Source of the DNA: a virus
IMG/VR virus record: IMGVR_UViG_3300028706_000329
Coordinates: 1-60,089 of that record
Reading direction: 5' to 3' (one strand)
DNA length: 60,089 nt
Shown here: one piece after another, positions 2,772-56,604 of the stretch
Numbering within the stretch: position 1 is the stretch's first letter
How the letters are laid out: each line of letters starts with the position of its first letter
Program-made: the position numbers and the translations under genes
The notes under the pieces: model-generated
What the model saw: the letters and a program-made list of their open reading frames with translations, nothing else
What the model was told of the DNA's origin: nothing
Databases searched by the model: none

Positions 2772-3012
2772 TTACATAATAATACAGCCGATAAAAGAAG
2801 AGTCTAAAGAAGAAAAAGGACTTCTTATAATGGATCAGCATGTAGATGACATTAGATATTTAAAAGGCAAGGTAATATCTGTGGGTAATTTTACAGAAGG
2901 CGTAAAAGAGAATGATACAATATATTATGATAGACGCGCTGGACACGGAATAGAATACGACGATAACTTATATCAAGTTATAAAGCAACAAGATGTTGTG
3001 TTAGTCGGTTAA
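2755..3012 (+). CDS. groES: Co-chaperonin GroES
   Basis: An 85-residue GroES-fold protein. An upstream in-frame ATG exists at 2743, but MKAVNNYIIIQPI is the usual GroES beginning, so 2755 is preferred. Residues about 15-30 form the mobile loop (KEEKGLLIMDQ), followed by the YLKGKVISVG strand typical of the family and a C-terminal LYQVIKQQDVVLVG that matches the final GroES strand. The gene overlaps the end of GroEL, so the two are translationally coupled and should form one chaperonin system. A second, double GroES-like protein is encoded at 14518-15105. Confidence 0.9.
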   Translation: MKAVNNYIIIQPIKEESKEEKGLLIMDQHVDDIRYLKGKVISVGNFTEGVKENDTIYYDRRAGHGIEYDDNLYQVIKQQDVVLVG

Positions 3013-35797: not shown

Positions 35798-38700
35798 ATG
35801 GAAGAAATCTATTTAGGTAGTGACGGAAAGGAATATTCTGCTTCAGACCTTCAAGAATATGCGAGTCAATTAAATTTAGACTTTGAAGAATACCTTCAAA
35901 AATTCCAGTTCACATCGAAAACAAGTGAGCCGGGAAAGTTAAAACCTACAAGTCCGGGTGTGCCTGTAGAGACAATTGCAGCACCCGATATGGAATCCAG
36001 CTCGGAAGATACTTCTTTGGAGTCACCTCAAAGGGGTGAAAATTTTATTGATAAACCACCTGGAAAATATATAACATTAAATATAAATGGAAAACCTCAG
36101 GATCTTACTGAGGAAGCGTACAATAGGGAATACGCTGGTAATCAAGAATATCCTAATTCTTTTGACGAGTATGTATCTGAACTTCAAAAAAACCCTAAGT
36201 TTCAAAATTTAAAAATAAAAGATTTTCAACAACCTAATTTAGAAGGCGTAACTGTTGTTGGTGAAAAACCAACAGATGGGTATAATATTGATGTTGACCC
36301 TGTTAAAGTGGCAAAAGGGTTTGTAATGGGTGGTCCCGTAGGGCTTGTTGCTGGCGCTATTAGTGGAACCACAATTGAAAAAGATAAATCAATTGAAGAA
36401 AAAGTTGTTGAGTTCCAAGACGGTTTATTAAAAATTGATGAAGAGTCTGAAAAAGAAAAGATAGTAAAACAATATTTTAATTTAAGCACAAACGCTATAT
36501 TTGGTATACCAGTTGCTAGAAACCCTGAATATTTTCCCCAAACAGAAGAAAGAAAAATACAAAAAACGCAACAAGGGAAAGACTATAATGAAAGAATGAA
36601 AGAAGAAGATTTACAAAAATCTTTAGGTGCTAGAAAATATGAACAGTGGAAAAAAATTACTGCTCAATTACAAAGTAATAATGAAGAGCTTACGTTAGAA
36701 AATATTGCTGAATCTTTTAATATAAATGAAGCTAAACAAACAGAAAAAGAAGGTGCTGAAATTAACAATATTGTATTCGAAGGAAAACAAAATTACGCAA
36801 GAAATTATATTACAAAAAATCTTACAGGACTAGGAGGGGATGTCGATAGTAGAGTGCAATACCTGCTTGATGGACTAGGAGAGGGTTTCAAAGATGAGTT
36901 AAATTTTCAAAAAAACAAAAGTCAGCAAGACCGTATAGACTTTGAAAAAAACTTTGGTAGACCATTGGTAAGAACAGAAGTAATAGACGGGAGAAAATAT
37001 GAACCCGAAGGTGTTACTAGCACATTTAAAAATGTGTTCGAAAATACAATTAAAAAATTAGAAAATAATAAAGATTCTCTTACGGCCACGACTAAAAGAC
37101 TTGAGGGAAAATTTAAAGAGATGAATTATGTTCAAGAAAAATATGGGGACAAAATAAAAATAGCTCAGGAAAATGGCGACTATGAGCAAGTAGAAAGGTT
37201 AAAACAAAACCCAGAATTATTGGCTTCAAATGAAACTTTAATTAGTTTACAAGAAGAAGGCAAGGTAGTATTGGCTAGGTGGCAGGAAGCTATGGATATA
37301 TATGAAAAAATACCAGATAGTCAGGCGGCTCTAAACCAACTGAGCAAAAATTATAATTTATTTGATAGATTTTTACATAAAAATGAACAAGCTTTTTTAG
37401 GTAGCGCTGCAATGTATCTTGGTAAATCTGCTGAGTGGTCTGGTAATTTATTAAATTTAATTCCAGGTGTTAATATTGAATCTAATGGGGATTTAGCAAA
37501 AGCCGCAACAGATTATAACAAAGCACTTCAAATTAAAGATGAAAAACAATTTCCTAAAGCATTAAATGTATTTCAAGAAGACTTAGGCTGGTATTCTGTA
37601 ACAGAAGCACTTGTAAACAATTCTCCTTCAATAATAGCTTTAGCTCTTTTTAGAGGTGGTGGAAGCACAAAAGGGCTTAATAGAACTAGAGAAAAATTGA
37701 AAAATTTTGGCAAAGTTTCTAATTTACCAAGCGGAAATACTACAGCGCTTAATAGAGCTTTTGCTGGTCCTATGGCTGCATTTTTTACAATGGAAGCTGG
37801 TGGACAAGCATCTAATCTTGAAATTAGTCAAAGAGAGGCGCAACAAAATATTAATTTTTTAAAAGCACAACTTGAATCTACTGAGGGGGAGTTTGAGAAA
37901 AATGAAATAATTCAAGAAATATCAAATCAAGAAAATATATTAAATTTAGAAGAATGGCAAAAAGCTCTTAATGTTAATTCTTACGGTGCAATTGCAACAC
38001 TTGCGGAGAGATTTGGTACTTTAAGATCTATGCAAAGGTTTAGTAGAATGTCACGAGCAGTTGGTCTTAATAATTTTAGAAAACTAACCGGAGAGCACAT
38101 GGGTAAAGTTATATCAGAAGGCATTGGTACAATAAAAGGGCTAGGGACTGGTGTCGGTATTGAAATATTAGAAGAAACATTTACTCAAATAGGACATAAC
38201 TATTTAGATAATACAATAGGCATAAATAAAAGTCTTTTAGAAGGAACAGATCCTGAGTTTTTTAAAAATGTTGCAATTATATCTATGGCAATATTAGGGC
38301 CATCAGTGTCTACTAATATTTATAATTCCGTATCTAGCACGCTAAAAACTCAAGCTGAACAACAAAAAAATAGACAATTAGAAGAAGAGCTGGTTAATAT
38401 ACAATTAAGGCTTAACAAGATTGATGGTAGAACAACAGAGGGCAGAAGGTTAAAAAAAGAAAGAGACGAAAAAATGAAAGAGTCAGCGTTCTTCCAAATG
38501 GTATCATTAGGGGGAAAAGCTGATATGTCAAAAGAAGACCATTTAGCTGCGTTTGATATTGAAGCTGAAAAAAATAGAAGATTGCAAGAAGCGTATGATG
38601 CAGGGTTAGATGCTTTATCTATTGATGGTGCTGTAGATAATTACAGTAGAAATAGAATGAAATACCTTAAAGATGATATTGCTGAATTAGATAAACGAAA

Positions 38701-41700
38701 AGAAGAAATCTTTAAAAATTATAATGATGAATACTTAACGCGTATAGCAAAAGATGACAAAGAAGGTTCAGAACAAAGAGGACAAAGACTTTTTAATCTT
38801 GGAATGTATAATTTTTCTAAAAGCTTATTAAAAGCAACCGATGGTGTTAATGTTAACACAATAACTACTCCTGCTGACTTATTAGAGTTTGAAAGTAAAT
38901 TAAAAAGAAAAGACTATCTTGCTTTAGAAGAGGCACTGCAAGGTGGATTAGTAACCGCTTCCCATGTTGGCAATGAAATATTTATATTCGAAGATAATTA
39001 TTTTAAAAACCAAGCAAATGAAAAATTAAGTAAAACAGAGCGTGAGGTAGCGAGTGTAGCTGCTTTGCATGAACTTGGCCACATACAAGCTAAAAATGCT
39101 GGTATAATAAAAGACGATAAATTAGTAGGTGATGCTAGATCTGTTATAACTGGTATAATAGCAGATGTTAAAAGTAGATATGAATCTGGCAGATTATCAA
39201 AAGAACAATACAATACATTTAATGCAAGAATTGAAGGGTATAGAATAAAAGGAGAATATAAGCATACAGATGGTAGAACAGTTGCTGGTAAAGAAATTAA
39301 CGGTGTTGATGTTGATGAGTTAATACAATTAGTTGCAGATTTTAAAACGTTAGGTATACTTCCAAAAAGTAGTTTTAATAATTTATATAGTTTAAAAGCA
39401 TTTATTAATAACTTTTTATCATTAAAAAACAAAAGTTCTTTAGCGTTTAAAATAAATACAGCTGAAGATGTAAATGGTTTTATTAATAGTTGGCAAGGTA
39501 AAGCGGCATCCGCAACAAGTGTACAACAAATTGATAAAGAAGAAGAGGTTAAATTTTCTAAAACTTTATTTGAAACAATAGATAGTTTTATACCAAAAAA
39601 TATTAAAACTAAAGCGGAATATGATGTATTTACTCGTTCACCAGAAGGAGTAAAAATATTTAATTCTATATATACAGGGGCCATTGCTGCAAATATAAGA
39701 AAAGATCGTTCGTTTCAAGAAGCTGAAAAAGTAATTCAAAGTGTTGTAACAAGAGTATTAGGATTTAATCCTGAACAAGTTAGAAAAGACGGCACTGTTG
39801 TTGGTAGAGAAGGCTTTGTTGAAAGAGTAATGTCGGATACAAGGTTTGCTACATTAGACGCTAAAGAAGCTTTAGCTATAGAAAGTAAAAAAAGAAAAAA
39901 AGAAGATAATCTTGATGAAAGCGCAGCTGCTGAAAGATCAACAATGCAATTAGCTGATGAGTCTACATCAATAGAATTTGAGTTAGACAATAAAAAGAAA
40001 GAAGATGATAAGCCAATATTTTCAGATGCTTTAGAATTATCTGAAGACACTAAACAAGAAATTGTAGTAGCCACGGCTAAATCGTTTCCTTTAGTTGAAA
40101 AAGGCGTTGACAAAACTTATTATATTACTAAAAAAGAAACCGGAAAAGTAATTACTGTTACTAAAGAGCAATATAAAAAATTAAAAGAAAATAAAAACTA
40201 TGAAAACCCTCGTGTTGAATCTAAAATAACTAATTATAAATCGTATAAACAGGGTTTACAAAAATTATCTTATATACAATTAAAACCCACGATTAATAAA
40301 CTTGTTAAAACCATGGGATTTGAAAAGTTTGTTAATAAATATTTTGACGTTATATACAACAAGTTGCCTCAATCAGTAATAAATAAAAGATATTCTACTG
40401 ACAAGCTTAGCTCATCTACCTTTATAGGTAAAAAAACAGGTAGAGAAACTATTGGTGCTGGTAAAGCTATAACGGAAAAAGTAAAAGTTAATAAAACAGA
40501 TTTTATAAATTATTTTGTAAATAGAGAAATGTTATCTCAAACTAGAAGCGATAGACAAACTGGTTTAATAGAGGTTATAACTAATGAGTTAAGTGCGGAT
40601 GTTGCAGTAGATATAATAGAGGGTAATATAGAAGTCAAAGACAAAGGTAAAGAACTAGATGTATTAGCTTTAATGGATGTGTCTGGCTTCCAATTAGAAA
40701 ATACTTTTTATGATAAATTAGAAAAAGCATTGGAAAGAGACAATCTTAGCATTGCGGTATTAGATGATAAAAATCAGAAATCTAGTAATATTAAATTTAG
40801 TAAAACAATTGGAGTGGCTAGAGAGCAAGGCATGAATGAGCAGGATCTTTATAAGTTTGTAAAATTAGCAAAAGCCAGCAAGGACAAAGCGCTAAGAAAA
40901 AACCCTGAACTAATGCAAGCTTTTCAAGATGATATACAAGAAACGTCATGGAAAGGTTATGAGCAAAGAGGGTTTTTAAACTTTGTACTGGCTAATAAAG
41001 ACAATCCTGAAATAACTATTGACCAAAAAGAAATAACAGCAGAAAGCAATACTAAAATTGATTTAAGGTTTGAGTGGAAAGGTCAAAAGCTTGGAATGGA
41101 AATTAAAAAAGGAATTAAAGGTGCTGCTAGATATAATGGGGGAAGAGCAAGGGGTACTACCTTAAACAACTTAACCACTGAGTATGATTACATTAATGAA
41201 ATAATTAAAAGTAAAAAATTTAAAAGTACTGTTGGTAAAGCATTAAAAAAATGGCAAGAAGAGCTTCAGGAATTATCTGGTAAAAAAATACAGTTTTTTA
41301 AAGATACAAATGGGGTAATCTCTGGAACCACTGATTTTGTTTCAAGAGAAGTACACAAGCAGATGAAGGAAAGTGGTTTACAGCAGGCTGTATCAGGTGG
41401 ATTTAGGTTTCCTATTGATATGAAACACATTAGATCTCATTCTATTAATATGGACAAAAATGGGTATAAGGGTGCGTACATGTTAATCAATACTGAAGGA
41501 TTTTCATTAGCAAATGATCAATTAAATACGTCAGCTCCTTTATTAGAGGGGGAAGCTTATATTGAATTTAAAATTAAGTGGGACCCTAAAAAAGCAAGTG
41601 GTGAGACTAGATCGGAATCCAGTGAGGGTAATTATGCTTTTGCTTTTGAAGCGAGAATTGAAAGCTTAAAAAACAAGGGAATACCATTAGCATCTTTAAA

Positions 41701-43849
41701 TGATTACGAAAAAGCGTTTGAAAGATCAATTTCTCAAAAAGAAATATTAGAAACGTTCAACAATATAATTGAAAAAACAAAAGGAGTGCCAGCCAACCAG
41801 GATATAACTCCTACAGAAATGTTAGCTTTTGAAAGAAAAAATAAACAATTACAAATATGGATCCCCAGCGCCGCTGAAGATTTAAGAGGTCTAATATACA
41901 GGTTAGTAAGAAAAGGTAAATTAGGTGATCAAGATTTAAAGTTTTATGATGAAGTATTATTTAAACCTTTAGCGCATGCTTACGCTGAGTTTGAAAATGA
42001 TAAGAACGAATCTATGAATACAATATCTAAAATACGTAAAGCAATTAAAGCTATAGGTGTTGATTTACAAGCAGAAGCTTTTGACGGCATTACAAATGGG
42101 CAAGCAATAAGATTACATTTATGGAATACAAGAGGATATATTAAAGACAATAAATTAAAAGGGGTTGATGCTATAAGTGATAAATTAGGAGCTAAAGCAA
42201 CCAATCACGTAAGATCTTTAAAAGGTATAGAGCTGTTGGATTTAATTGCTGATATTGAAGGTATATACCAAAAAACTGGTAGAAATTATCCAGAGCCTAA
42301 AAAACAATGGAGATCACAAACAATATTATTTGACTTTTTAGAATTCCAAAACGAGGATAGGCGAAAAGAAATTTTTGCAGGATTTGTTAATAACATGGAA
42401 ACTTTATTTGGTAAATTAAAAAATGGCAAATTGGAAGGGCCACAAGCAATGAGGTTAAGAGCTGCTGTGGGAAATCAATGGATGATTGCCATGTCTGATA
42501 TGGTAAGAAGACTTAAATCTGGTAGAAACAGAATACCCAGTAAGGACCCATATATAGATGCAATGTTAGATTGGACTAACGCTTCAGTTGGTACCACTAT
42601 GTTTATAAACTCTAGATCTGCTTTGCTACAGACTATTTCAAATCTTAATTTTATAAATGGTACTGATAATAATGTTTTAAGAGTAGGTGCAGCTTATTTA
42701 AATGCACCACAATTTGTAGAAGATTTTTTATATATTTTAAATTCTCCTTTTCTACAACAAAGAAGAGCTGGGCTTAAAATAGATGTTAATCTTGACGAAC
42801 TGAGTCAAGCTGTAGATGGTTATGGAAAAACTGGTAAAGCTCAAGCGTTAATTTCGGCTATACTTAAAAAAGGGTTTATGCCTACGCAATTTGCAGATAG
42901 TTTTGCTATTGCTTTTGGAGGTGCTCCGTTCTTAAGGAATAGAACAAAAACGTATATTAAAGAGGGGCTTACAAAAGAAGAAGCTTTTGAAAAAGCATTT
43001 CTTGATATGAAGGAAACTTCTGATATGTCACAGCAATCATCTAGACCGGATAAAGTATCTATGCAACAAGCTAGTAGTCTTGGTAAATTAATTTTATCTT
43101 TTCAAAATTACCCTATGCAAGCGGCTAGACTGCAAAAAAGAGCAGCACAAGATTTTTTTGCTGGTAGAGGTGATAAAATAAGTCATTTTAGAAAAATAAT
43201 ATATTATGGTGTGGTACAAAACGCTGCGTTCCATATGTTACAAAAAGCAGCATTTGCTGTTTTATTTAATGATGAAGGCATAGAAGATGAAGAAGAAGAA
43301 AAAAGACTTTGGTCTGTACTAAACGGGATGGCTGACAGTATGCTAGCTGGTTCTGGGTTTGCCGGTATGGGTATGGCAATGATGAAAAATGTAACTTTAG
43401 AATTAATTGATGAATTTAGTAGTGATAGACCAGCAGATACAAGAGAAGCTTTAGTAAAAGCAACTTCATTTTCACCTGCAATAAACGCTAAATTTAGAAA
43501 GTTTGACCAAGCTTTAAAAAGGTGGGAGTATAAAGACACGTATGAAGATTTAGAAAAGTTTAGTTTAAAAAACCCTATACTTAAAAGCACAACAGAATTT
43601 ATAGAATTTTCTACTAATTTTCCATCATCAAGGATAATATCGAAATTAGAAAATGTTGAAGCTGCTTTAGACGCTGAATCGCAATGGTATGAAAAAGTTT
43701 TTCTTATGATGGGTTGGAATAAATACAGCTTATTTATGGAAGACTGGCAGATGCCGGATATTACACCAATAACTCCTCCAAAAATAAAATCAAGAGTTCA
43801 GGCCCCTAAAATTAAAGGGCCAAAAATTAAAAAACCTAAAATAAATTAA
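35798..43849 (+). CDS. Giant internal virion/polyvalent protein with protease and nuclease motifs (2683 aa)
   Basis: The start MEEIYLGSDGKEYSASDLQEYASQ resembles other marine-phage ejection proteins. A hydrophobic patch lies near residue 840. The zinc-protease motif H1091-E-L-G-H1095 lies in VAALHELGHIQAK. An identical KFSKT pentamer occurs at 1252-1256 and 1666-1670, flanking a middle domain, as if marking processing sites. After the second one a PD-(D/E)xK-like nuclease signature is seen: Asp1755 in IDLRFEWKG, then Glu1768-Ile-Lys1770. Residues 1960-2680 are helical, with hydrophobic stretches around 2460-2540, and the end is a PKIK-rich basic tail. It is probably injected with the DNA and attacks host targets. 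Functions are inferred from motifs. Confidence 0.75.
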   Translation: MEEIYLGSDGKEYSASDLQEYASQLNLDFEEYLQKFQFTSKTSEPGKLKPTSPGVPVETIAAPDMESSSEDTSLESPQRGENFIDKPPGKYITLNINGKPQDLTEEAYNREYAGNQEYPNSFDEYVSELQKNPKFQNLKIKDFQQPNLEGVTVVGEKPTDGYNIDVDPVKVAKGFVMGGPVGLVAGAISGTTIEKDKSIEEKVVEFQDGLLKIDEESEKEKIVKQYFNLSTNAIFGIPVARNPEYFPQTEERKIQKTQQGKDYNERMKEEDLQKSLGARKYEQWKKITAQLQSNNEELTLENIAESFNINEAKQTEKEGAEINNIVFEGKQNYARNYITKNLTGLGGDVDSRVQYLLDGLGEGFKDELNFQKNKSQQDRIDFEKNFGRPLVRTEVIDGRKYEPEGVTSTFKNVFENTIKKLENNKDSLTATTKRLEGKFKEMNYVQEKYGDKIKIAQENGDYEQVERLKQNPELLASNETLISLQEEGKVVLARWQEAMDIYEKIPDSQAALNQLSKNYNLFDRFLHKNEQAFLGSAAMYLGKSAEWSGNLLNLIPGVNIESNGDLAKAATDYNKALQIKDEKQFPKALNVFQEDLGWYSVTEALVNNSPSIIALALFRGGGSTKGLNRTREKLKNFGKVSNLPSGNTTALNRAFAGPMAAFFTMEAGGQASNLEISQREAQQNINFLKAQLESTEGEFEKNEIIQEISNQENILNLEEWQKALNVNSYGAIATLAERFGTLRSMQRFSRMSRAVGLNNFRKLTGEHMGKVISEGIGTIKGLGTGVGIEILEETFTQIGHNYLDNTIGINKSLLEGTDPEFFKNVAIISMAILGPSVSTNIYNSVSSTLKTQAEQQKNRQLEEELVNIQLRLNKIDGRTTEGRRLKKERDEKMKESAFFQMVSLGGKADMSKEDHLAAFDIEAEKNRRLQEAYDAGLDALSIDGAVDNYSRNRMKYLKDDIAELDKRKEEIFKNYNDEYLTRIAKDDKEGSEQRGQRLFNLGMYNFSKSLLKATDGVNVNTITTPADLLEFESKLKRKDYLALEEALQGGLVTASHVGNEIFIFEDNYFKNQANEKLSKTEREVASVAALHELGHIQAKNAGIIKDDKLVGDARSVITGIIADVKSRYESGRLSKEQYNTFNARIEGYRIKGEYKHTDGRTVAGKEINGVDVDELIQLVADFKTLGILPKSSFNNLYSLKAFINNFLSLKNKSSLAFKINTAEDVNGFINSWQGKAASATSVQQIDKEEEVKFSKTLFETIDSFIPKNIKTKAEYDVFTRSPEGVKIFNSIYTGAIAANIRKDRSFQEAEKVIQSVVTRVLGFNPEQVRKDGTVVGREGFVERVMSDTRFATLDAKEALAIESKKRKKEDNLDESAAAERSTMQLADESTSIEFELDNKKKEDDKPIFSDALELSEDTKQEIVVATAKSFPLVEKGVDKTYYITKKETGKVITVTKEQYKKLKENKNYENPRVESKITNYKSYKQGLQKLSYIQLKPTINKLVKTMGFEKFVNKYFDVIYNKLPQSVINKRYSTDKLSSSTFIGKKTGRETIGAGKAITEKVKVNKTDFINYFVNREMLSQTRSDRQTGLIEVITNELSADVAVDIIEGNIEVKDKGKELDVLALMDVSGFQLENTFYDKLEKALERDNLSIAVLDDKNQKSSNIKFSKTIGVAREQGMNEQDLYKFVKLAKASKDKALRKNPELMQAFQDDIQETSWKGYEQRGFLNFVLANKDNPEITIDQKEITAESNTKIDLRFEWKGQKLGMEIKKGIKGAARYNGGRARGTTLNNLTTEYDYINEIIKSKKFKSTVGKALKKWQEELQELSGKKIQFFKDTNGVISGTTDFVSREVHKQMKESGLQQAVSGGFRFPIDMKHIRSHSINMDKNGYKGAYMLINTEGFSLANDQLNTSAPLLEGEAYIEFKIKWDPKKASGETRSESSEGNYAFAFEARIESLKNKGIPLASLNDYEKAFERSISQKEILETFNNIIEKTKGVPANQDITPTEMLAFERKNKQLQIWIPSAAEDLRGLIYRLVRKGKLGDQDLKFYDEVLFKPLAHAYAEFENDKNESMNTISKIRKAIKAIGVDLQAEAFDGITNGQAIRLHLWNTRGYIKDNKLKGVDAISDKLGAKATNHVRSLKGIELLDLIADIEGIYQKTGRNYPEPKKQWRSQTILFDFLEFQNEDRRKEIFAGFVNNMETLFGKLKNGKLEGPQAMRLRAAVGNQWMIAMSDMVRRLKSGRNRIPSKDPYIDAMLDWTNASVGTTMFINSRSALLQTISNLNFINGTDNNVLRVGAAYLNAPQFVEDFLYILNSPFLQQRRAGLKIDVNLDELSQAVDGYGKTGKAQALISAILKKGFMPTQFADSFAIAFGGAPFLRNRTKTYIKEGLTKEEAFEKAFLDMKETSDMSQQSSRPDKVSMQQASSLGKLILSFQNYPMQAARLQKRAAQDFFAGRGDKISHFRKIIYYGVVQNAAFHMLQKAAFAVLFNDEGIEDEEEEKRLWSVLNGMADSMLAGSGFAGMGMAMMKNVTLELIDEFSSDRPADTREALVKATSFSPAINAKFRKFDQALKRWEYKDTYEDLEKFSLKNPILKSTTEFIEFSTNFPSSRIISKLENVEAALDAESQWYEKVFLMMGWNKYSLFMEDWQMPDITPITPPKIKSRVQAPKIKGPKIKKPKIN

Positions 43850-44345: not shown

Positions 44346-44562
44346 AAGACTTTTATTAGCTTTACTTGTTTTAACATTTGTTTCGTGTTACACTATAAAA
44401 TCTACAGTTGTAAATAAGTTAGATAAAACTTGGCCTTGGAATACTATAAAATACAAAGGGAACCCAAACTTAGATTCCCTTCATATTTATAAACAAAACA
44501 AAACTAACCATCGCAACTTAAGCAATCTGGATTCATTGCCTCCGCTGCAATATCGCCTCTGA
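44317..44562 (+). CDS. Small lipoprotein, possible o-spanin (81 aa)
   Basis: A basic N-region, hydrophobic stretch LLLALLVLTFVSC and Cys25 form a lipoprotein signal. The mature part is short and hydrophilic. It overlaps the endolysin gene, which suits an Rz1-like outer-membrane spanin, although it is not Pro-rich and no partner is firmly known (the membrane coiled-coil gene at 4875 is a candidate). The last 59 bases overlap the convergent nrdA 3' end, an unusual tail-to-tail overlap of the two main transcription blocks. Confidence 0.6.
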   Translation: MEKQCIALYKRLLLALLVLTFVSCYTIKSTVVNKLDKTWPWNTIKYKGNPNLDSLHIYKQNKTNHRNLSNLDSLPPLQYRL

Positions 44563-46249
44563 GAACACTCTCTGTTCTCGTGTAGTATAAAGTTTTAATT
44601 CCTCGCTTCCAAGCTTCCATATGAACTCTATTAATCCATCTAGGTTCTGCTTGTGATGGAAACGCAAGATTCAAACTTACAGACTGATCAATATAAGTTT
44701 GTCTTATACCCGCCTGATTAACTAATTCTAGTTGATTTATTTCCTTAAACGTTTTGAAAACATTTTTAACCGGCTCGCCAACTTCTTCCTGAGTAAGCTT
44801 GCCATTAGTATCGTAATAGTAACCATTTAATTCTTTTATTCCTTGCACAGATCCTTTGTCTTTTAATACTTTATCCCAAGTTTTCTGTGTGTTTATATTT
44901 AATTTTCTGAATATTTTTTCTAATTCTCTATTCTTTCTTATAAATGTACCTTTAGCAGATTGCTCTGTAAATACATTAGCAGCCCAGGGTTCAATTCCTG
45001 GTGATACATTACCAGACAATTTACTGTTTGATACTGTTGGTGCAACAGCTCTTAAGTGTGTATTACGCATTCCTGTACCTACACACCATAATGGTTCACC
45101 ATATACGTCAGCTAGATCTCTACTTGCTCTTTCAGTTTCCAGTTTTAGCTGTGAAAATATTTCTCTTGTTTTATACTGTGCAATCAATCCTTCAAAAGCA
45201 ATTCCTTTCTGTTGTAATAAAGTATGCCAACCTAATACACCTAAACCTAATGCTCTTCCTTTTTCAGCAGATCTAACTGCATTACCAAATCCACGCATAT
45301 TCTTAGCTCTTTGTATAAACTCTTCTAATACTCCATCTAAAAACCAAGTGGCATAATAAATCAAATCACTATTTTTCCATTCATCATACTTAGCTAAATT
45401 AACAGAAGATAAGCAACATACAAAAGAATGTGATTCATCTGTATGTAGTGTAATCTCAGAACATATATTAGTCATATGAACTTTTAAACTGTTATCTTTA
45501 TATGCTTTAGGATTATTTTTATTAGTATTACCTTTAAACATTATATAAGGTTCACCTGTAGCTTTTCTTTTCTGTAGTAGTCTACTCCATTTCTTTCTTG
45601 CCTCTGCTTGCCCTTCTTCGAGTCTTCTCATAAACTTATCACCTATTACAGTACATTGATGTAAATTTAATGACTGTCTATTAACATCACCTTTGGGCTC
45701 TCTAATTTCTAACCAATCTAAAAAATCTGGGTGATCAATATTTATATTAACAGACGCAGCACCTCTTCTAACTGATCCTTGATTTGTGGCAAGTATAGTT
45801 GAGTCATATACTTTACAGAATGGCACAACACCATCTGATGTTCCATTACCAGCTATAATAGACCCTGCTGGTCTAATCATGTTAACACCAATACCCACAC
45901 CACCACCGTGCTTTGCAAGCAACATCATTTCAAGATTCTTATTACCTATATCCATAATGCTATCAGCTACATCAATACCAAAACAACTAATAGGTAAACC
46001 TCTATCGGTTCCAGTATTAGATAAAACAGGTGAAGCTAAACAAAGCCATCCTTTCCAAATATAATCAAAAAACTTATCTGCTAATTCTGGTTTATATAAC
46101 CTTCTAGCAACAGCTTTAGAAACTCTCATATAAGCGTCTCTAGGCGATTCACCTTGTAATAGATAACCACCTGAAATAGTCTTCTTATATACGTCTGTAT
46201 CGCCCCACACAGGGTAATCCTCGCCTTTCTTCCAGTCGTTATTCCACAT
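44504..46249 (-). CDS. nrdA: Ribonucleotide reductase class I, large (alpha) subunit
   Basis: A 581-residue alpha subunit, short because it lacks the N-terminal ATP-cone, so feedback inhibition by dATP is probably absent. Active-site features are present: PISCFG, NICSEITLH (N-x-C-x-E), FVCCLSSVNL, the KTLYY radical-transfer Tyr pair near the end and a C-terminal C-x-x-C (CLSCDG) for re-reduction. It makes deoxyribonucleotides with the NrdB protein encoded upstream at 46618. The coding order is nrdB, small lipoprotein, coiled-coil gene, then nrdA. Confidence 0.95.
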   Translation of the reverse strand: MWNNDWKKGEDYPVWGDTDVYKKTISGGYLLQGESPRDAYMRVSKAVARRLYKPELADKFFDYIWKGWLCLASPVLSNTGTDRGLPISCFGIDVADSIMDIGNKNLEMMLLAKHGGGVGIGVNMIRPAGSIIAGNGTSDGVVPFCKVYDSTILATNQGSVRRGAASVNINIDHPDFLDWLEIREPKGDVNRQSLNLHQCTVIGDKFMRRLEEGQAEARKKWSRLLQKRKATGEPYIMFKGNTNKNNPKAYKDNSLKVHMTNICSEITLHTDESHSFVCCLSSVNLAKYDEWKNSDLIYYATWFLDGVLEEFIQRAKNMRGFGNAVRSAEKGRALGLGVLGWHTLLQQKGIAFEGLIAQYKTREIFSQLKLETERASRDLADVYGEPLWCVGTGMRNTHLRAVAPTVSNSKLSGNVSPGIEPWAANVFTEQSAKGTFIRKNRELEKIFRKLNINTQKTWDKVLKDKGSVQGIKELNGYYYDTNGKLTQEEVGEPVKNVFKTFKEINQLELVNQAGIRQTYIDQSVSLNLAFPSQAEPRWINRVHMEAWKRGIKTLYYTRTESVLRGDIAAEAMNPDCLSCDG

Positions 46250-46448: not shown

Positions 46449-46649
46449 TTAATTAATTCCACAAGATGTAGCTATTAAATAAACTACTTCTTCTTTACAC
46501 TGTTCGTTTTCTACAAATGTTCCACATTTTTCAATAGCGTAAGCTTGTATCAATTTTATATCACACTCAACTTCGACATTTTGTTTAGTGCAACCTATAA
46601 ATGTTAGTATTAATATACTACCAAATATCCTCAAAATCTTCTCCTTCAT
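46449..46649 (-). CDS. Small Cys-rich lipoprotein (66 aa)
   Basis: The start at 46649 (MKEKILRIFG) is chosen because it gives a normal lipoprotein signal, SILILTFIGC, with the lipid Cys at residue 20. A longer frame up to 46805 would run across nrdB. The mature part has four Cys (ECD, KCG, QCKEE, SCGIN), probably as disulphides in the periplasm. The gene overlaps the end of nrdB by 32 bases in another frame. The function is unknown. Confidence 0.6.
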   Translation of the reverse strand: MKEKILRIFGSILILTFIGCTKQNVEVECDIKLIQAYAIEKCGTFVENEQCKEEVVYLIATSCGIN

Positions 46650-47586
46650 TTGCTTTAGAATAGTCAGTAGGTCTAATAGCAAAAAAATCGGTATGAGTAA
46701 CACCCCCAGTAAGATGATAAAACCAATCCAAAGCATTAGCTTTGTTCTCGTTATACCTAAAATGTTGTGAAGATTTGTTATAGCCAAGTTCTGTAATTTT
46801 TTCATTAGCTCTTTTTTTAATAAATTCTTTTAAATCATCTTTCTTTAAATTCTCTATATCGCCTTGTTCAAACATTTTATCGATATATTTTAATTCAAGG
46901 TCAACCATTATATCGGCTGCCTCTAATACATGGTTTTTACATTCTTTTTTTAAGCCTGGTGTTTCTTCACACATATGTCTAAACAATTGACAACCCATCT
47001 TTGAATGTAATGATTCATCTCTTACTGACCATTTCATTTGCTGGCCAACACCCTTAAGTAGGTTTCTAAGCTGAAAGCTATATAGAACAGCAAAAGCAGA
47101 ATATAACGAAACACCTTCAGCGAAAGCGCTAAACACTGCCAAACTTTTGGCAATACCAATTTTATTTTTTCCTTCATAACTAACTAAATTTTCAAATCTA
47201 TTTGCGGTAGCAGGCTCGTGTAAGAAAGCTTCAAAGTCTTCAAGACCTAAAGTTTCATTTAAATACGAATAAGCTACAGCGTGAATAGTTTCTTGTGATC
47301 CAAACATCATAGCCATTTGTTGTATTTCATGTTTAGGAAACCACGCAACTACTTTTTGTGTCCAGTAATCTGACACCGCACATTCTGTTTGTGCAAATCC
47401 TAATAATATATTACCTACTAAATGTTTTTCAGAAGGCGTTAATCTCTCATTCCAGTCTTTTACGTCACCACTCATTGGTATTTCCGTGTGCAACCAAAAC
47501 GCTTGTGCTTGTTTTAACCAGCCCTCAGTGTAGTACTCTGGGTACTCAAAAGGCTTGTAAGCTACTCTATTGTCAAATAATCCCAT
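46618..47586 (-). CDS. nrdB: Ribonucleotide reductase class I, small (beta) subunit
   Basis: A 322-residue ferritin-like radical-generating subunit. Metal ligands are visible as Glu68 (QTECAVSDYW), Glu99 and His102 (QETIHAVAY), Glu157 (FAEGVSLY), Glu191 and His194 (RDESLHSKMG). Tyr106, four residues after His102, sits where the radical tyrosine of class Ia enzymes is found. The first ligand is Glu rather than the Asp of E. coli. The C-terminal tail ends EGEDFEDIW, the usual acidic peptide that docks with NrdA. It starts one base after a small upstream gene. Confidence 0.95.
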   Translation of the reverse strand: MGLFDNRVAYKPFEYPEYYTEGWLKQAQAFWLHTEIPMSGDVKDWNERLTPSEKHLVGNILLGFAQTECAVSDYWTQKVVAWFPKHEIQQMAMMFGSQETIHAVAYSYLNETLGLEDFEAFLHEPATANRFENLVSYEGKNKIGIAKSLAVFSAFAEGVSLYSAFAVLYSFQLRNLLKGVGQQMKWSVRDESLHSKMGCQLFRHMCEETPGLKKECKNHVLEAADIMVDLELKYIDKMFEQGDIENLKKDDLKEFIKKRANEKITELGYNKSSQHFRYNENKANALDWFYHLTGGVTHTDFFAIRPTDYSKANEGEDFEDIW

Positions 47587-47740: not shown

Positions 47741-47900
47741 GTACTTTTATATTAAATTTATCATGAATTTCAATTAATTCGTTCCATCTTAAAAACCCCC
47801 TATTACTAGCCCATTTAATATGCTTTTCAATTTGACGTTCTTTATATTTTAACCTAGCTACTTTCTTTTGTTTTTCAGAATTTCTATTACTCTGTCGCAT
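47733..47900 (-). CDS. Small basic protein (55 aa)
   Basis: ATG 47900 to TAG 47733-47735. The first 30 residues are very basic (MRQSNRNSEKQKKVARLKYK), followed by WASNRGFLRWNELIEIHDKF, a helix-rich tail. It overlaps the endonuclease gene by 43 bases, the largest overlap in this operon, which lowers confidence slightly. Nucleic-acid binding is plausible from its charge. Confidence 0.5.
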   Translation of the reverse strand: MRQSNRNSEKQKKVARLKYKERQIEKHIKWASNRGFLRWNELIEIHDKFNIKVHE

Positions 47901-48319
47901 TCTTTATGATTTTGTGGTTTAAAAAGTATATAACTTGGGAACTGCTCAGTAACTAATTTTTTAAATAACTTCCACCTAATAGGAAATGATTCATTAGGCC
48001 TACCTTTAGTTTCAATTATAAAATCATCACCTATAAAGTCAGGTGTGTATTTTATTGGCAGTATTCTTTTTTCTCCTCTGTTTATAAATTCCCCCTTTGA
48101 GTTAGCTTGTCTTTCATAAACTTCATTTTCAAAATGAAATCCATTTAATAGTACAAAAGTTTCACCTTCGTATTTAGCTTTAATCTTTGCTTTCTGTAAA
48201 GCCATATACATATACTTCTCCAGCCCTGATGCAAAGTTATGCCCCTCATAACTAATTTTTTTAGACTGGACTGGCCCCTTTTTTTTCCTACCAGGGGCTT
48301 TCTTCCTTTTATAAAACAT
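47858..48319 (-). CDS. PD-(D/E)xK endonuclease (T7 endonuclease I/DUF1064-like)
   Basis: A 153-residue protein with a very basic N-terminus (KRKKAPGRKKKGPVQSKK), Glu in SGLEKYM, then YTPDF and IIETKGR (D ... E-x-K) and a helical RWKLFKKLV. This order is that of phage Holliday-junction or debranching nucleases such as T7 gp3. It would resolve branched replication or recombination intermediates, or degrade host DNA. It shares one base with the following gene's stop/start (TAATG). Confidence 0.8.
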   Translation of the reverse strand: MFYKRKKAPGRKKKGPVQSKKISYEGHNFASGLEKYMYMALQKAKIKAKYEGETFVLLNGFHFENEVYERQANSKGEFINRGEKRILPIKYTPDFIGDDFIIETKGRPNESFPIRWKLFKKLVTEQFPSYILFKPQNHKECDRVIEILKNKRK

Positions 48320-48555
48320 TATTCTTTTGCTTTAAGATCTCTTAAATAACATTCTTCTATTTCACTTTTTAATACCTGTCTTGTTTTTTCTATATAGTTG
48401 ACAGCATCCATTAATTCTTCCTGTATATGTTGAAGCCATGTATCTAAGGTTTGGTCATCTTTATGTAAAGTAACACCGTACTTTTTATAACCTACATCAG
48501 ATCTGTTAATAAACTTTTTTACTACTGATTCTATAATCTTATCTCTTATTTCCAT
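48319..48555 (-). CDS. Small all-alpha protein, MazG/dNTP pyrophosphatase-like (78 aa)
   Basis: Helical, with WLQHIQEELMDAVNYIEKT at residues about 40-58. The E-E-x-x-D-A pattern is reminiscent of MazG and phage dCTPase-type NTP pyrophosphohydrolases. Only one half of a metal site is evident, so activity is uncertain. It lies between the endonuclease and the GIY-YIG/MazG gene, in the nucleotide cluster. Confidence 0.5.
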   Translation of the reverse strand: MEIRDKIIESVVKKFINRSDVGYKKYGVTLHKDDQTLDTWLQHIQEELMDAVNYIEKTRQVLKSEIEECYLRDLKAKE

Positions 48556-48556
48556 A

Positions 48557-49315
48557 TTAGTCTTTTACAAATGTTCCGTTTACCATTCTCCCAGTTCTAC
48601 CAGAAATCTCATCATAAGCAAACTGCATACAAGTTTCAATTGAAACACCGTTGAGCTCGGCGAGATTAGTAAGAACAACAACGCTATCACCAATAGCATC
48701 GATAATACCTTCTTTATCATTGTTAAGAAGGGATTGCGATAATTCCCCTGTTTCTTCATATAATTTTATTAATTGTGTTTTAGGATCTCCTTTATCTAAG
48801 ATACCTTTTTCTTTAGCCCATTGTCTTATTAAGTCAAATATTTCTACATTGTTATGAGCAGGCTTTGCTAAAAATGCTTCATAAAAAGCTTTGTTATAAA
48901 TGTAAGTTCTGGTATCGTCATACATAGACTTGTATGAGTTAGCCACCATCCATTCAATTGCTTCTGTTGTTATTTCAAATTCACCTAAAGGCGTTTGCCA
49001 TTTTACCCCTATGTTTTTGTTTAGTATAGATTTAAGTTTAGACTTTTTGCAAGGGAAAGTCGAGGTTTGTTCTGTTGCATTTATTTTCATTTTTTTATTT
49101 ACTAAATTTTTATATAATGTTCTATCAACTTTATACCCATAAAACTTTTGAAGCTCTATTTCTCGCTTTGATATGTAATTAATATCAGACGAAGAATCTA
49201 GAACTTCATACTCTCCAAGCTTATAGCCTTGCACAAGCGTAACTCTATTATTTAAATCACGTGTTACGCCGATTTTTTTATTAGGTATGTGGTAAATATA
49301 ATATATTTCTTCCAT
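48557..49315 (-). CDS. GIY-YIG-like domain fused to MazG-type nucleotide pyrophosphohydrolase
   Basis: A 252-residue protein. Residues 1-70 resemble the GIY-YIG nuclease fold (YYIYHIPNKKIGVTRDLNNR), although the exact GIY/YIG tripeptides are degenerate. Residues about 155-252 are MazG-like: LIKLYEETGELSQSLL supplies E-E-x-x-E, and IIDAIGDSVVVLTNL supplies a second acidic pair, the metal site for hydrolysing NTPs to NMP. The middle part (EFEITTEAIEWMVANS) is undefined. It lies six bases from the thymidylate synthase homologue, so it may supply dCMP or dUMP to it. Confidence 0.75.
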   Translation of the reverse strand: MEEIYYIYHIPNKKIGVTRDLNNRVTLVQGYKLGEYEVLDSSSDINYISKREIELQKFYGYKVDRTLYKNLVNKKMKINATEQTSTFPCKKSKLKSILNKNIGVKWQTPLGEFEITTEAIEWMVANSYKSMYDDTRTYIYNKAFYEAFLAKPAHNNVEIFDLIRQWAKEKGILDKGDPKTQLIKLYEETGELSQSLLNNDKEGIIDAIGDSVVVLTNLAELNGVSIETCMQFAYDEISGRTGRMVNGTFVKD

Positions 49316-49321
49316 ATTGTT

Positions 49322-50155
49322 TTATTTTCCTACAGATAATTCTGCTTTAATTATAGGACTGTGGTTATATCCTTCTAATGTTATAGTATCTTTATTAGGA
49401 ATGAATACAAAATCATTTGCACCTTCTCTTAATTTAATACCACCCCAACTCATTTTAAGTTTAGGTAAATCGTATTGCTTTGCGGCAATATACTCTTCAG
49501 CTTGTTCTAAATGATTATTATATAAATGACAATCACCTAAGCTAGCAATAAGAGTTCCGGGTTTATAACCAGCTCCTTCTGCTATCATTTCTAATAACAA
49601 GCCATACATAGTTATATCATATGGTAATCCAAGAAATACATCTGCACTTCTTTGTTGCCACATTAAGTCCAGTTTACCATCGTTATAAAATAACTGGAAG
49701 TTATAATGACAAGGAGGGAGTACCATATCGTGAAGATCATGAACGTTCCAAGCGGAAACCATGAGTCGTCTACTGGTGGGATTTTCCCTAAGCTCCTGTA
49801 GCACCATTTGTAATTGATCAATGCCATTAGCATGGCGCCACTGGTGACCGTATACGGGACCAAGTTTTCTATCAGTCCTACCAGATCTTTGATAATCAGG
49901 AATCCAATACTTGACACCGTTATCAATAAGATAATCCAAGTCGCTTCGACCTTCGACAATCCAAAATAATTCTGTTTTTGCATGATTAAATATAATTTTC
50001 TTTTTAGTTAATATAGGGAATCCGGCTTTCATGTCATGATACAACATTCTACCGAACACAGCTCTTGTACCTGTCCCTGTTCTATCTGCTTTAGGTTTAC
50101 CTCCATGTAATATACCGGATATTAAACCTGTGTATTCAGTTTCTATATTTGTCAT
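49322..50155 (-). CDS. thyA: Thymidylate synthase family enzyme, likely dCMP-specific (Asn to Asp)
   Basis: A 277-residue homologue. Conserved features are DRTGTGT, TELFWIVEG, NPTSRRLMVSAWNV (Arg129/Arg130), catalytic Cys149 in LPPCHYNF, QRSADVFLGLPYD and GDCHLYNNHLEQ. The residue after LPY is Asp180. It lies 31 residues after the catalytic Cys, exactly where E. coli ThyA has Asn177 (Cys146). Asp at this site is found in the dCMP hydroxymethylase of T4, and the Asn-to-Asp change in Lactobacillus casei ThyA is known to give dCMP methylation. The enzyme is therefore probably a dCMP methylase or hydroxymethylase (inference), although ordinary dTMP synthesis cannot be excluded. Confidence 0.85.
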   Translation of the reverse strand: MTNIETEYTGLISGILHGGKPKADRTGTGTRAVFGRMLYHDMKAGFPILTKKKIIFNHAKTELFWIVEGRSDLDYLIDNGVKYWIPDYQRSGRTDRKLGPVYGHQWRHANGIDQLQMVLQELRENPTSRRLMVSAWNVHDLHDMVLPPCHYNFQLFYNDGKLDLMWQQRSADVFLGLPYDITMYGLLLEMIAEGAGYKPGTLIASLGDCHLYNNHLEQAEEYIAAKQYDLPKLKMSWGGIKLREGANDFVFIPNKDTITLEGYNHSPIIKAELSVGK

Positions 50156-50438
50156 AATAGTATATACATGTTTTATACATCATTTTCTTACATTCATTAG
50201 CGCCATAAGATTCTGGCGACAAGTTAGGTTTTTCACCTTTCTTATATGGCCCAATAATAATTGATATGTGCCATTCTTTAGGAGCAGCACCTGTGGAAAT
50301 TGGAGAGTAAGAAATTCTTATATTATTTTTAATACAAAAATCATTTGCCGCTCTTTCTTTAACTGTAGGAAAGTAAGTACCCATGATACTTTTCTTTCTC
50401 TTCCTACCTATATCCATTGCACTTATTGTTCCTGCCAT
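50136..50438 (-). CDS. Conserved-looking phage protein (100 aa)
   Basis: Function not recognised. The start MAGTISAMDIGRKRKKSIMGTYF is followed by KEWHISIIIGPYKKGEKP and a Tyr-rich end (YKTCIYYYDKYRN). It overlaps the thyA start by 20 bases and follows an operator-like element between 50441 and 50469. Similar proteins occur next to primase genes in marine phages, as I recall. Confidence 0.65.
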   Translation of the reverse strand: MAGTISAMDIGRKRKKSIMGTYFPTVKERAANDFCIKNNIRISYSPISTGAAPKEWHISIIIGPYKKGEKPNLSPESYGANECKKMMYKTCIYYYDKYRN

Positions 50439-50469: not shown

Positions 50470-52191
50470 CTACTCCCAAGGCATTATAGTGTTTTCTGGT
50501 ATAGGTTCTGAATGCGGTATATAACAACCAGATTTAGGTTCCCAAGTGAAGAAACATTCAGCACCATTTTCACCTAAATTTTGAAACTTAACTTTTAACA
50601 CTTTAACCTTTGTTGTTTTCTTTTCATAGTCTCTATGAACTAATAAACCATGATAACTAGCATCATACCATTCACCTCCACCTTTAATATTATACATTGT
50701 AGGCTCTTCAATTTTACCGTTTGAATCCTTATACATTTTAGTTGGGTGGGCAACTATAACAACTAATACATCATATTTTTTAGCAAACATTTCAATCTTA
50801 GTTAAATATTCTAATGTATAAACATTAACATCACCGTTATTGGTGTTTAAATCTCTTACTTTATTAAATGGATCTATAACTAAACATTTAATACCTTTGC
50901 GTTTTACAAGTTCACCACCTTTTTTTAATACTGAATCTAATGTATAACGCTCCATATCGATAAAATAAAAGTTATCGTTTATATATTCTGTTGTTTGTTC
51001 CCATTTATCTGTACCTATATCTTTTCTTGATGGCATACCTTGCCAAGCTTTTCTCATTAACTTATGAGCGTGTAAATATGTGGGTGCATTTTCAGGTGAA
51101 GCAAAAGCCGTCTTCCAACTGTGTTGCTGATTATAACCTATAACCATCTGATCTACAAAATCTGATTTACCAGATGATGGAATACCTGTAACAGTTATAA
51201 ACTGCCCTGTGTATGTAGAAAATATATTGTCAAAATTACGTAAGCCTATTTGAAATCCAGGTTTGAAACCGTTTTCAACAAAGTCTACAACATCGCCTTC
51301 AATATCTTTAAAAGTTGTTACGTTTTCTAATGGTACTGGACTTGCTGCATCAATAACTTTAACTAAAGAAGGAGCTCCGTATTTAAGTAAATATTCATTT
51401 GCATCTTTACAATCTTTAAATGAAGTTGTATAGCAAACCTCCGCCCCTAATCTTCTTATTAATTCTTGTCTTAGCGCTTGTCCTGGCTCATCATTATCAA
51501 CAGCTATAATTATCTTTTCAATGCCTGTAAAATAATCTATACAGTTATCTAAATAATCTAAGTTGTTTGTGCCCAGTGTGGCACCATTTGGAACTGATAT
51601 AGCGTTAGATATACCTGCTTCGTGTAGAGCTAATACATCAATCTCACCTTCAGTTATAACACAAAAAGAATGGCCTACAATAGAATCAATGTTATAGAAT
51701 ACTTTTTCAGCACCCTTATATAACTTGAAGTTCTTGCGGCCATCTCTGTACTTAATGTTGATGAGTTCACCACCCATCATATAATTAAATTTAATTGCGT
51801 TCTCTTCTTTTGAAGTTTGTGGCATAAACTCAGGACCCTCAGAAACATTTAAGTCTTCAAGAGTCCTTTGAGATATACCTCTACCATTAAACCACTCTAC
51901 AACTTTTGAACTAACAGGCTTATGCGTCTTAGTACTAAAATCCGGACGGACATATACTTTTTCGCTTACACCTCTTCTTTTAAAAGTATGTAACTGGAAC
52001 GTTCTATTACAATTGTGGCAAGTACCTAACCCTCTCTCCCAGTCGTAAGAAGCGCACTTCTTTTTCTTATTCTCAGATTTTCTAGTATGTGAACACATGG
52101 GGCATGTACCCTCCGGTGCACCTACTTTTAAATCGTATTGATTAAACTGTTCGATCTGGAAACCATTAATTTCCGTGTTATTTACTTGCAT
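50470..52191 (-). CDS. T7-like bifunctional primase-helicase
   Basis: A 573-residue protein. A zinc finger near the N-terminus has C30-x2-C33 and C58-x2-C61. A TOPRIM primase segment is visible near residues 175-195 (FCVITEGEIDVLAL, with acidic IIIAVDNDEPG following). The RecA-type helicase has Walker A VTGIPSSGKSDF near residue 335, a C-terminal IKCLVIDPFNKV Walker B and VVIVAHPTKM. It unwinds the fork and primes the lagging strand. No phage DNA polymerase is seen in the window, so it would have to work with a host polymerase. Confidence 0.92.
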   Translation of the reverse strand: MQVNNTEINGFQIEQFNQYDLKVGAPEGTCPMCSHTRKSENKKKKCASYDWERGLGTCHNCNRTFQLHTFKRRGVSEKVYVRPDFSTKTHKPVSSKVVEWFNGRGISQRTLEDLNVSEGPEFMPQTSKEENAIKFNYMMGGELINIKYRDGRKNFKLYKGAEKVFYNIDSIVGHSFCVITEGEIDVLALHEAGISNAISVPNGATLGTNNLDYLDNCIDYFTGIEKIIIAVDNDEPGQALRQELIRRLGAEVCYTTSFKDCKDANEYLLKYGAPSLVKVIDAASPVPLENVTTFKDIEGDVVDFVENGFKPGFQIGLRNFDNIFSTYTGQFITVTGIPSSGKSDFVDQMVIGYNQQHSWKTAFASPENAPTYLHAHKLMRKAWQGMPSRKDIGTDKWEQTTEYINDNFYFIDMERYTLDSVLKKGGELVKRKGIKCLVIDPFNKVRDLNTNNGDVNVYTLEYLTKIEMFAKKYDVLVVIVAHPTKMYKDSNGKIEEPTMYNIKGGGEWYDASYHGLLVHRDYEKKTTKVKVLKVKFQNLGENGAECFFTWEPKSGCYIPHSEPIPENTIMPWE

Positions 52192-56109: not shown

Positions 56110-56604
56110 TTATAAGAAACTAGGTGCTTGTAAATGCGGTTGCTCATCTTTTATTGTTACTTGTTTTTTATCGTTAATATAGTAGTTCCAGTATGCTTTA
56201 GATGAATGGCCTTCAACTTTATATTCATCAGGCATACATTGTGGTGGTTGTGTGAAAGGCGTATTGTCAATATATAAAGGTGGCATGTATAGCACGTCTC
56301 TACACTTTTCAATAGTCAGATGTGTTCTACCATATCTGTTAGTATACTCATCACCCAGCGCCATCATGTACTGATATGTCCAATTGTAATTGTCTAAGCC
56401 GGAACGGACCCATATAGTAGAGGGGTGGTTCACATGAGCTTTCTTGTAAGGAACATAACTAGTATCGTACTCATAATCTTCTCCGATCACATGATGGGCA
56501 GTACAAAGCATTTGGGCAGCTTCCAGCGGCATTTTAACAACATGTCTGTTGTAATGGTATTCGGCAGCTTTTACTGGGTCTGGGTGTAAGTAAAATATAT
56601 TCAT
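56110..56604 (-). CDS. Conserved marine-phage protein MNIFYLxxDP-type (164 aa)
   Basis: A family I recognise from many environmental phages: the N-terminal MNIFYLHPDPVKAAEYHYNR, HVVKMPLEAAQMLCTAHH, NHPSTIWVRSGLDNYNWTYQYMM, DEYTNRYGRTH and QCMPDEYKV. Conserved His, Glu, Trp and Tyr residues suggest an enzyme or a nucleic-acid-binding fold, but no function has been assigned to my knowledge. It starts on the stop of the upstream 52-aa gene (TAATG). Confidence 0.75.
   Translation of the reverse strand: MNIFYLHPDPVKAAEYHYNRHVVKMPLEAAQMLCTAHHVIGEDYEYDTSYVPYKKAHVNHPSTIWVRSGLDNYNWTYQYMMALGDEYTNRYGRTHLTIEKCRDVLYMPPLYIDNTPFTQPPQCMPDEYKVEGHSSKAYWNYYINDKKQVTIKDEQPHLQAPSFL

Follow-up and report, generated by a model that had tools for sequence, protein, structure and literature searches.

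We describe a thymidylate synthase (TS) homologue and its neighbouring genes in a 60,089-base virus record of IMG/VR, IMGVR_UViG_3300028706_000329 (the whole stretch is hereafter referred to as the window). The homologue carries an aspartate, Asp180, at the position of Asn177 in the E. coli enzyme, and it is likely that the window phage makes 5-methyl-deoxycytidine monophosphate (5-methyl-dCMP), which is probably incorporated into the phage DNA. This reading is based on active-site residues, their conservation, gene order, the exchange of enzymes in one genome slot and a contrast in restriction-site avoidance, from which we infer the substrate and the product of the enzyme, the deoxycytidine triphosphatase (dCTPase) activity of its neighbour, the kinase step and the presence of the modified base in virion DNA.

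The aspartate-type thymidylate synthase

49322..50155, (-) strand: Asp-type thymidylate synthase homologue, predicted dCMP C5-methylase (277 aa; PF00303, E 5.6e-81; assigned from residues, tree and ThyA fold)

The initial annotation described this protein as a ThyA homologue with Asp180 lying 31 residues from the catalytic cysteine, as Asn177 does in E. coli, and both the PF00303 match and our alignment agree: Cys149 (codon 49711-49709) and Asp180 (GAT, 49618-49616) share the spacing of C146/N177 in E. coli and of C148/D179 in T4, so that T4 dCMP hydroxymethylase (dCH, gp42) does have an aspartate here, as had also been stated. In the alignment, the position of E. coli Asn177 was occupied by Asp in 80/80 of the closest viral relatives, versus Asn in 77 of the 78 bacterial ThyA-like sequences retrieved by the same query, and Asp180 is therefore due neither to chance nor to a sequencing error. 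The catalytic Cys, the phosphate-binding Arg residues, Glu58, Tyr94, Asp169, His207 and Tyr209 are all kept in the window protein and in the 80 relatives. Together with the PF00303 match, the catalytic residues place the window TS in the ThyA superfamily, and the replacement of Asn by Asp at position 177 is the mark of the cytosine-using subgroup. Overall, the protein is most similar to canonical ThyA and has a predicted ThyA fold. The AlphaFold model is weak at the catalytic loop (137-150), and the geometry of Asp180 was therefore left out of the argument. From its residues, the window TS is predicted to prefer dCMP as substrate. In a study selecting modified-cytosine DNA from metagenomes, the TS genes of modified contigs were marked mostly by Asp at position 177 and co-occurred with PRA-PH domains (PMC8670742). 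The mutant work cited there, in which an Asn to Asp change yields 5-methyl-dCMP, bears out the earlier claim that this exchange turns ThyA into a dCMP methylase.

Alignment with ThyA and dCMP hydroxymethylases followed by tree inference had been proposed as a check. In the resulting tree, the Asp TS sequences formed a single group (support 100/100) nested within ordinary phage TS, with an Asn-type sister group (L239-L246) and the T5-like TS as neighbours; in the wider search, all of these nearest sister phage TS had Asn. The Asp clade was far from T4 gp42 and from the DoCa6 TS, although the gp42, SPO1 and DoCa6 branches are long. DoCa6, whose 5-methylcytosine (5mC) content is inferred from its kinship with Xp12, served as a proxy for the Xp12 and Bosavirus enzymes, and the window TS did not group with this long-branched proxy. 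As the Asp clade sits among Asn-type phage TS, apart from T4 gp42 and the Xp12-type enzymes, its aspartate was probably gained separately from theirs.

Among the isolate phages of the collection searched, none encodes a TS sharing more than 60% identity with that of the window, but IMG/VR contains many relatives. The large terminase of the window is 61% identical to that of the uncultured podovirus MW202828, which carries ThyX, and 46% identical to those of Flavobacterium phages of the genus Elemovirus. The TS-bearing phages form a widespread marine group, and the closest relatives in culture have Flavobacteria as hosts; no published description of this group was found in the open-access literature. 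Two contigs (L093 and L094) binned as the Rickettsiales metagenome-assembled genome MED657 carry the Asp TS phage type, L093 with the same neighbours, and are probably phage DNA binned together with a bacterium.

The genome slot and its neighbours

50470..52191, (-) strand: primase/helicase, upstream border of the slot (phrog_239, 5.4e-87; 82/84 loci)
50136..50438, (-) strand: 100-aa conserved protein between the primase/helicase and the TS slot (79/84 loci; no family match)
48557..49315, (-) strand: GIY-YIG(T5orf172)-MazG fusion, predicted deoxycytidine triphosphate (dCTP) pyrophosphohydrolase giving dCMP (Pfam, PDB, Foldseek; motif EETGE...DAIGD intact)
48319..48555, (-) strand: 78-aa conserved protein (no Pfam/PHROG function; present in Elemovirus and MW202828)
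47858..48319, (-) strand: neighbouring DUF1064/endonuclease I-like resolvase (PF06356 3.5e-5, just under the cut-off; phrog_190 Holliday junction resolvase 1e-8; 79/84 loci)
46618..47586, (-) strand: NrdB, ribonucleotide reductase small subunit (PF00268 9.7e-59; 76/84 loci)
44504..46249, (-) strand: NrdA, ribonucleotide reductase large subunit (PF02867 5.6e-90; 61/84 loci)

The gene order, which is strongly conserved, is primase/helicase, a gene of about 90 aa, TS, MazG fusion, a gene of about 80 aa, DUF1064 nuclease, NrdB and NrdA. The fusion lies directly downstream of TS in 83 of the 84 TS loci, and the primase/helicase, the gene of about 90 aa and DUF1064 were found in 82, 79 and 79 of them; the lower counts of NrdB (76) and NrdA (61) come from a sample in which many contigs are too short to include farther neighbours. 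The phage thus encodes a ribonucleotide reductase, as the initial annotation had it, with PF00268 and PF02867 matches farther along the same strand.

Among terminase relatives without a window-type TS, contigs G055, G062 and G064 have the same slot filled by another TS-family protein of 214-233 aa, whose identity is 27-28% with T4 gp42 and 24-26% with the window TS. This protein has the full hydroxymethylase signature: D177, Asp three residues before the catalytic Cys (C-3), Ser at the position of T4 Ser94 (E. coli position 92) and Thr147. A search with this type of enzyme yielded 80 loci, all with Asp177, in which the MazG fusion was directly downstream in 78 and the primase upstream in 71; a homologue from a Bacteroides phage (44%) bears the annotation deoxycytidylate 5-hydroxymethyltransferase. 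In G049, the slot is occupied by yet another Asp-type TS, the third kind, which is divergent (35% identity to the window TS). Since these different enzymes all carry the cytosine-reading Asp, the job of the slot is hard to explain except as cytosine modification. In G064, one of the slot-hydroxymethylase contigs, a different large ribonucleotide reductase (L418 10418-12271), class II-like by eye, replaces NrdA/NrdB at the usual place.

The gene for the MazG fusion begins 6 bp downstream of the TS gene. The C-terminus, which carries the acidic motif of MazG/PRA-PH domains, matched PF01503 and PF03819 in 17/17 family members, the window copy alone falling just under the Pfam cut-off. The best PDB match is 1vmg (1.2e-7), and Foldseek matches include MazG, S-2L MazZ and dCTPase folds as well as other MazG types. 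The N-terminal half, a feature beyond the initial annotation, is T5orf172/GIY-YIG-like in 10 of the 17 members at E<1 (best 1.7e-5). All 6 slot-enzyme contigs have the fusion (in G055 as a pair of overlapping frames), whereas none of the 12 relatives without a slot enzyme has it at full length (G037 has the MazG half only), and it is absent from MW202828 and Elemovirus. This joining of a nuclease-like GIY-YIG domain to a nucleotide pyrophosphohydrolase (48557-49315) is kept across the window phage lineage. T4 endonuclease II is a GIY-YIG enzyme that cuts cytosine DNA and, by a speculative analogy, unmodified DNA might be a target of the GIY-YIG half.

Two MazG/dCTPase-like genes had been reported next to TS. 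This holds for 48557-49315, whereas none of Pfam, PHROGs and PDB gave a MazG match for the 78-aa product of 48319-48555, which did not match the fusion in profile comparison either; its reading as a second MazG thus lacks support. Its PDB matches are weak (ribosomal death-associated protein, 7e-4; sliding clamp inhibitor, 0.26). The gene also occurs in Elemovirus and MW202828, relatives without any TS or with only ThyX, and is probably not specific to the cytosine cassette.

No dCMP deaminase was found in 31 related records, no dihydrofolate reductase or family-A DNA polymerase in 31-32 related records, and no ThyX in the relatives searched. Two glycosyltransferases lie in the structural gene block (window 30601-31827 and 31797-33422; domains PF11397, of N-acetylglucosamine type, and HtrL_YibB plus weak TAGT/phrog_842). 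They were considered as partners glucosylating 5-hydroxymethylcytosine (hmC) and rejected, because the 541-aa protein encoded at 31797-33422 has a match in 0/31 long relatives; they possibly serve virion or surface glycosylation. Elsewhere, the window encodes GroEL and GroES (1206-2771 and 2743-3012), as Elemovirus and Cellulophaga phage phi40:1 do according to their annotation, a Pyr_excise family protein (56110-56604; the pyrimidine-dimer glycosylase family, as T4 DenV) and an open reading frame of 2683 aa with no PHROG match (35798-43849).

Restriction-site avoidance

Modified cytosine blocks many restriction enzymes, and selection against their sites should therefore relax. For each contig, we compared observed counts of 12 cytosine-containing 4-bp palindromes with those expected from 3- and 2-mers under a Markov model, and scored a motif as strongly avoided at an observed/expected ratio (O/E) < 0.35 and a Poisson p < 1e-4. 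None of the 32 Asp TS contigs had a strongly avoided palindrome (median overall O/E 0.90), nor did any of the 62 slot-hydroxymethylase contigs (median 0.96). In contrast, avoidance was detected in 10/12 MW202828 relatives, long contigs without ThyA or ThyX (median 0.71; GATC, CATG, CTAG, GGCC or CGCG), in 22/24 further relatives, and in 7/8 contigs with the sister Asn-type TS (L239-L246). Palindromes of A and T only, counted in some of the groups, occurred about as often as expected. As a calibration, a 15-kb piece of T4 (hmC) and DoCa6 had no avoided motif, and SPO1 (5-hydroxymethyluracil, with ordinary cytosine) avoids GGCC.

Pooled counts could mask avoidance in single genomes, and the palindromes were therefore recounted per contig, in same-metagenome pairs, in a G+C-matched comparison, with a lenient threshold and as 6-mers. 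The contrast was seen in 5/5 same-metagenome pairs and in the G+C-matched comparison (7/8 controls versus 0/32 Asp TS contigs), and 6-bp palindromes agreed with it. The Fisher p value of 2.7e-8 ignores kinship and is not to be taken literally, since the contigs of one lineage depend on each other and p values therefore overstate the contrast. The missing avoidance fits cytosine-modified DNA. It could instead reflect hosts with few restriction systems, or some other protection, an explanation to which we give a small chance: the contrast tracks lineage, but it also appeared within the same-metagenome pairs, and neither N6/N4 methylases nor QueC were found in 41 records from both sides of it.

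Both the MW202828-like phages (GATC, CATG, CTAG, GGCC, CGCG) and Elemovirus (CATG, CCGG, CGCG and GGCC at zero) show a strong, motif-specific loss of 4-bp palindromes (L083-L084, L330-L409), hinting that these losses reflect host restriction specificities.

Predicted product and comparison with known systems

The initial annotation proposed 5-methyl- or 5-hydroxymethyl-dCMP as the product. Residue conservation, the slot exchange and the missing site avoidance uphold an enzyme acting on dCMP, but the residues favour the methyl over the hydroxymethyl product. In T4 dCH, Asp145, which precedes the Cys by three residues, and Ser94 have been held responsible for hydroxymethylation, with TS enzymes having Leu at the first of these positions (PMC6400193). 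At C-3, Asp is found in T4 gp42 and SPO1 gp29, as opposed to Leu in the window TS (Leu146, codon 49720-49718) and in 80/80 relatives. The Ser94 position is Pro in the window TS and in 74/80 relatives and Lys/Arg in 6, and the C-terminal folate-closing tail, missing from T4 dCH, is present and ends in SVGK. The window TS therefore departs from T4-type hydroxymethylases, defined by Asp/Glu at C-3, Ser/Thr at the Ser94 position and the lack of a tail, on all three counts; with these residues absent, its predicted product is 5-methyl-dCMP. It looks like a canonical methylase frame, with His147 and Leu143 retained, in which the base-reading residue has changed.

It is unlikely, although conceivable, that the enzyme acts on dCMP and releases 5-hydroxymethyl-dCMP, giving virion DNA with 5-hydroxymethylcytosine, perhaps further decorated. 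In its favour, the slot is taken by an enzyme of hydroxymethylase type in sister phages, and where the E. coli enzyme has Trp83, a residue that keeps water out of the active site, a Ser is aligned in the window clade, in a loop with insertions where the alignment is uncertain. However, the activating C-3 Asp/Glu and Ser94 of T4 dCH are replaced by Leu and Pro, and the 541-aa glycosyltransferase is missing from all the long relatives. A thymidylate bypass, in which dCMP is methylated to 5-methyl-dCMP and a host deaminase converts this to thymidine monophosphate (dTMP), DNA cytosine staying ordinary, has little to recommend it. A dCMP deaminase adjoins TS in an Xp12 relative, the genomes are AT-rich and the relative MW202828 carries ThyX, but no deaminase occurs in the 31 records, a hydroxymethylase unfit for a dTMP role fills the same slot in sister phages, and the missing site avoidance would be left unexplained. 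It is least probable that the protein is an ordinary TS using deoxyuridine monophosphate and tolerating Asp, given that, despite its closeness to canonical ThyA, its fold, His147 and Leu143, the Asp is invariant in a deep clade whose nearest sister TS (L239-L246) have Asn on contigs that avoid restriction sites in 7 of 8 cases, and the slot exchanges it with dCMP-type enzymes.

Under the favoured reading of dCMP methylation, NrdAB would produce deoxycytidine diphosphate, which host kinases would take to dCTP, and the MazG half of the fusion would hydrolyse dCTP to dCMP, depleting the unmodified precursor. Cys149 of the TS would attack C6 of dCMP while Asp180 protonates N3 and orients the cytosine; the carbon would come from methylene-tetrahydrofolate, and hydride transfer as in ordinary TS, rather than attack by water, would give 5-methyl-dCMP. 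Host kinases and the host polymerase would then put this nucleotide into phage DNA, where 5mC would shield cytosine-containing restriction sites.

Several observations weigh against this reading. The window phage is uncultured. No thymidylate-kinase-family gene was found in the 32 related records, whereas T4 has its own kinase that acts on the modified nucleotide; as neither a kinase of this family nor a family-A DNA polymerase was found, both activities must be supplied by the host or by unrecognised genes, and the kinase step is the weakest link of the proposed path. At the lenient threshold, 6/32 Asp TS and 5/62 hydroxymethylase contigs were flagged (versus 33/36 MW202828 kin and 8/8 Asn-type contigs), and the avoidance contrast largely sets a few lineages against each other. 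The C-terminus of the window TS extends two residues beyond the usual Val/Ile, which, with the Ser at the Trp83 position, leaves doubt on the methylase assignment. Finally, position 147 also differs in modified contigs (PMC8670742), and the window TS keeps His147.

If the reading is correct, a common marine phage lineage replaces cytosine with 5mC by means of an enzyme differing from ThyA mainly at one catalytic position, and exchanges it freely with a hydroxymethylase; such genes, when annotated as 'thymidylate synthase', need not make dTMP. The slot enzymes would then offer a natural series for how TS-fold enzymes select base and product, and Asp177, the C-3 residue and the absence of palindrome avoidance would together form a sequence-only predictor of modified-cytosine metagenomic viruses. 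It would also suggest that restriction is a strong pressure in the hosts of these phages. Among phages, complete replacement of cytosine by 5mC is known chiefly from Xp12.

The Xp12-type methylase, represented by DoCa6, shares with the window TS the Asp at the Asn177 position and a predicted 5-methyl-dCMP product, and the genome of the Xp12 relative AXL1 has a nucleotide pyrophosphohydrolase and a ribonucleotide reductase (PMC9206674), as does the window. However, the two TS are 27% identical, DoCa6 lies on a long separate branch, and they differ at C-3 (Asn in DoCa6, Leu in the window TS) and at 147 (Pro versus His); a dCMP deaminase adjoins the DoCa6 TS, whereas the window has none. T4 gp42 has Asp at the same position, with a dCTP hydrolase partner and a ribonucleotide reductase in the phage, and is resembled by the slot enzyme of the window's sister phages; it is 23% identical to the window TS, which lacks equivalents of Asp145 and Ser94 and has the C-terminal tail missing in T4 dCH. 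The engineered E. coli N177D and L. casei N229D enzymes likewise combine a canonical TS frame with one substitution, Asp for Asn, at the base-reading residue, but the window Asp is natural, fixed in a whole phage clade and accompanied by Phe176 to Tyr and Ile79 to Tyr. The TS contigs of the MetaGPA survey (PMC8670742) share Asp177 and the co-occurring PRA-PH/MazG domain; they also differ at position 147 and have carbamoyltransferase and dCMP deaminase domains, whereas the window has His147 and a MazG fused to GIY-YIG.

T4, Xp12 and the MetaGPA survey thus already provide examples of a dCMP-reading TS-family enzyme for DNA modification beside a dCTP hydrolase. The new elements are the single-site-like natural conversion in a canonical TS frame, its independent origin, the exchange with a hydroxymethylase in one slot, the GIY-YIG-MazG partner and the restriction-site footprint. 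The odds seem to us about even for the broader proposal that the window TS is a natural, fixed equivalent of the laboratory Asn-to-Asp enzyme, a dCMP methylase that evolved from canonical phage ThyA separately from the Xp12 and T4 enzymes and is exchangeable with a hydroxymethylase in one slot beside GIY-YIG-MazG, and that the lineage swaps between 5mC and hmC genomes while keeping a partner that would remove dCTP and possibly cleave unmodified DNA, a T4-like strategy in one operon.
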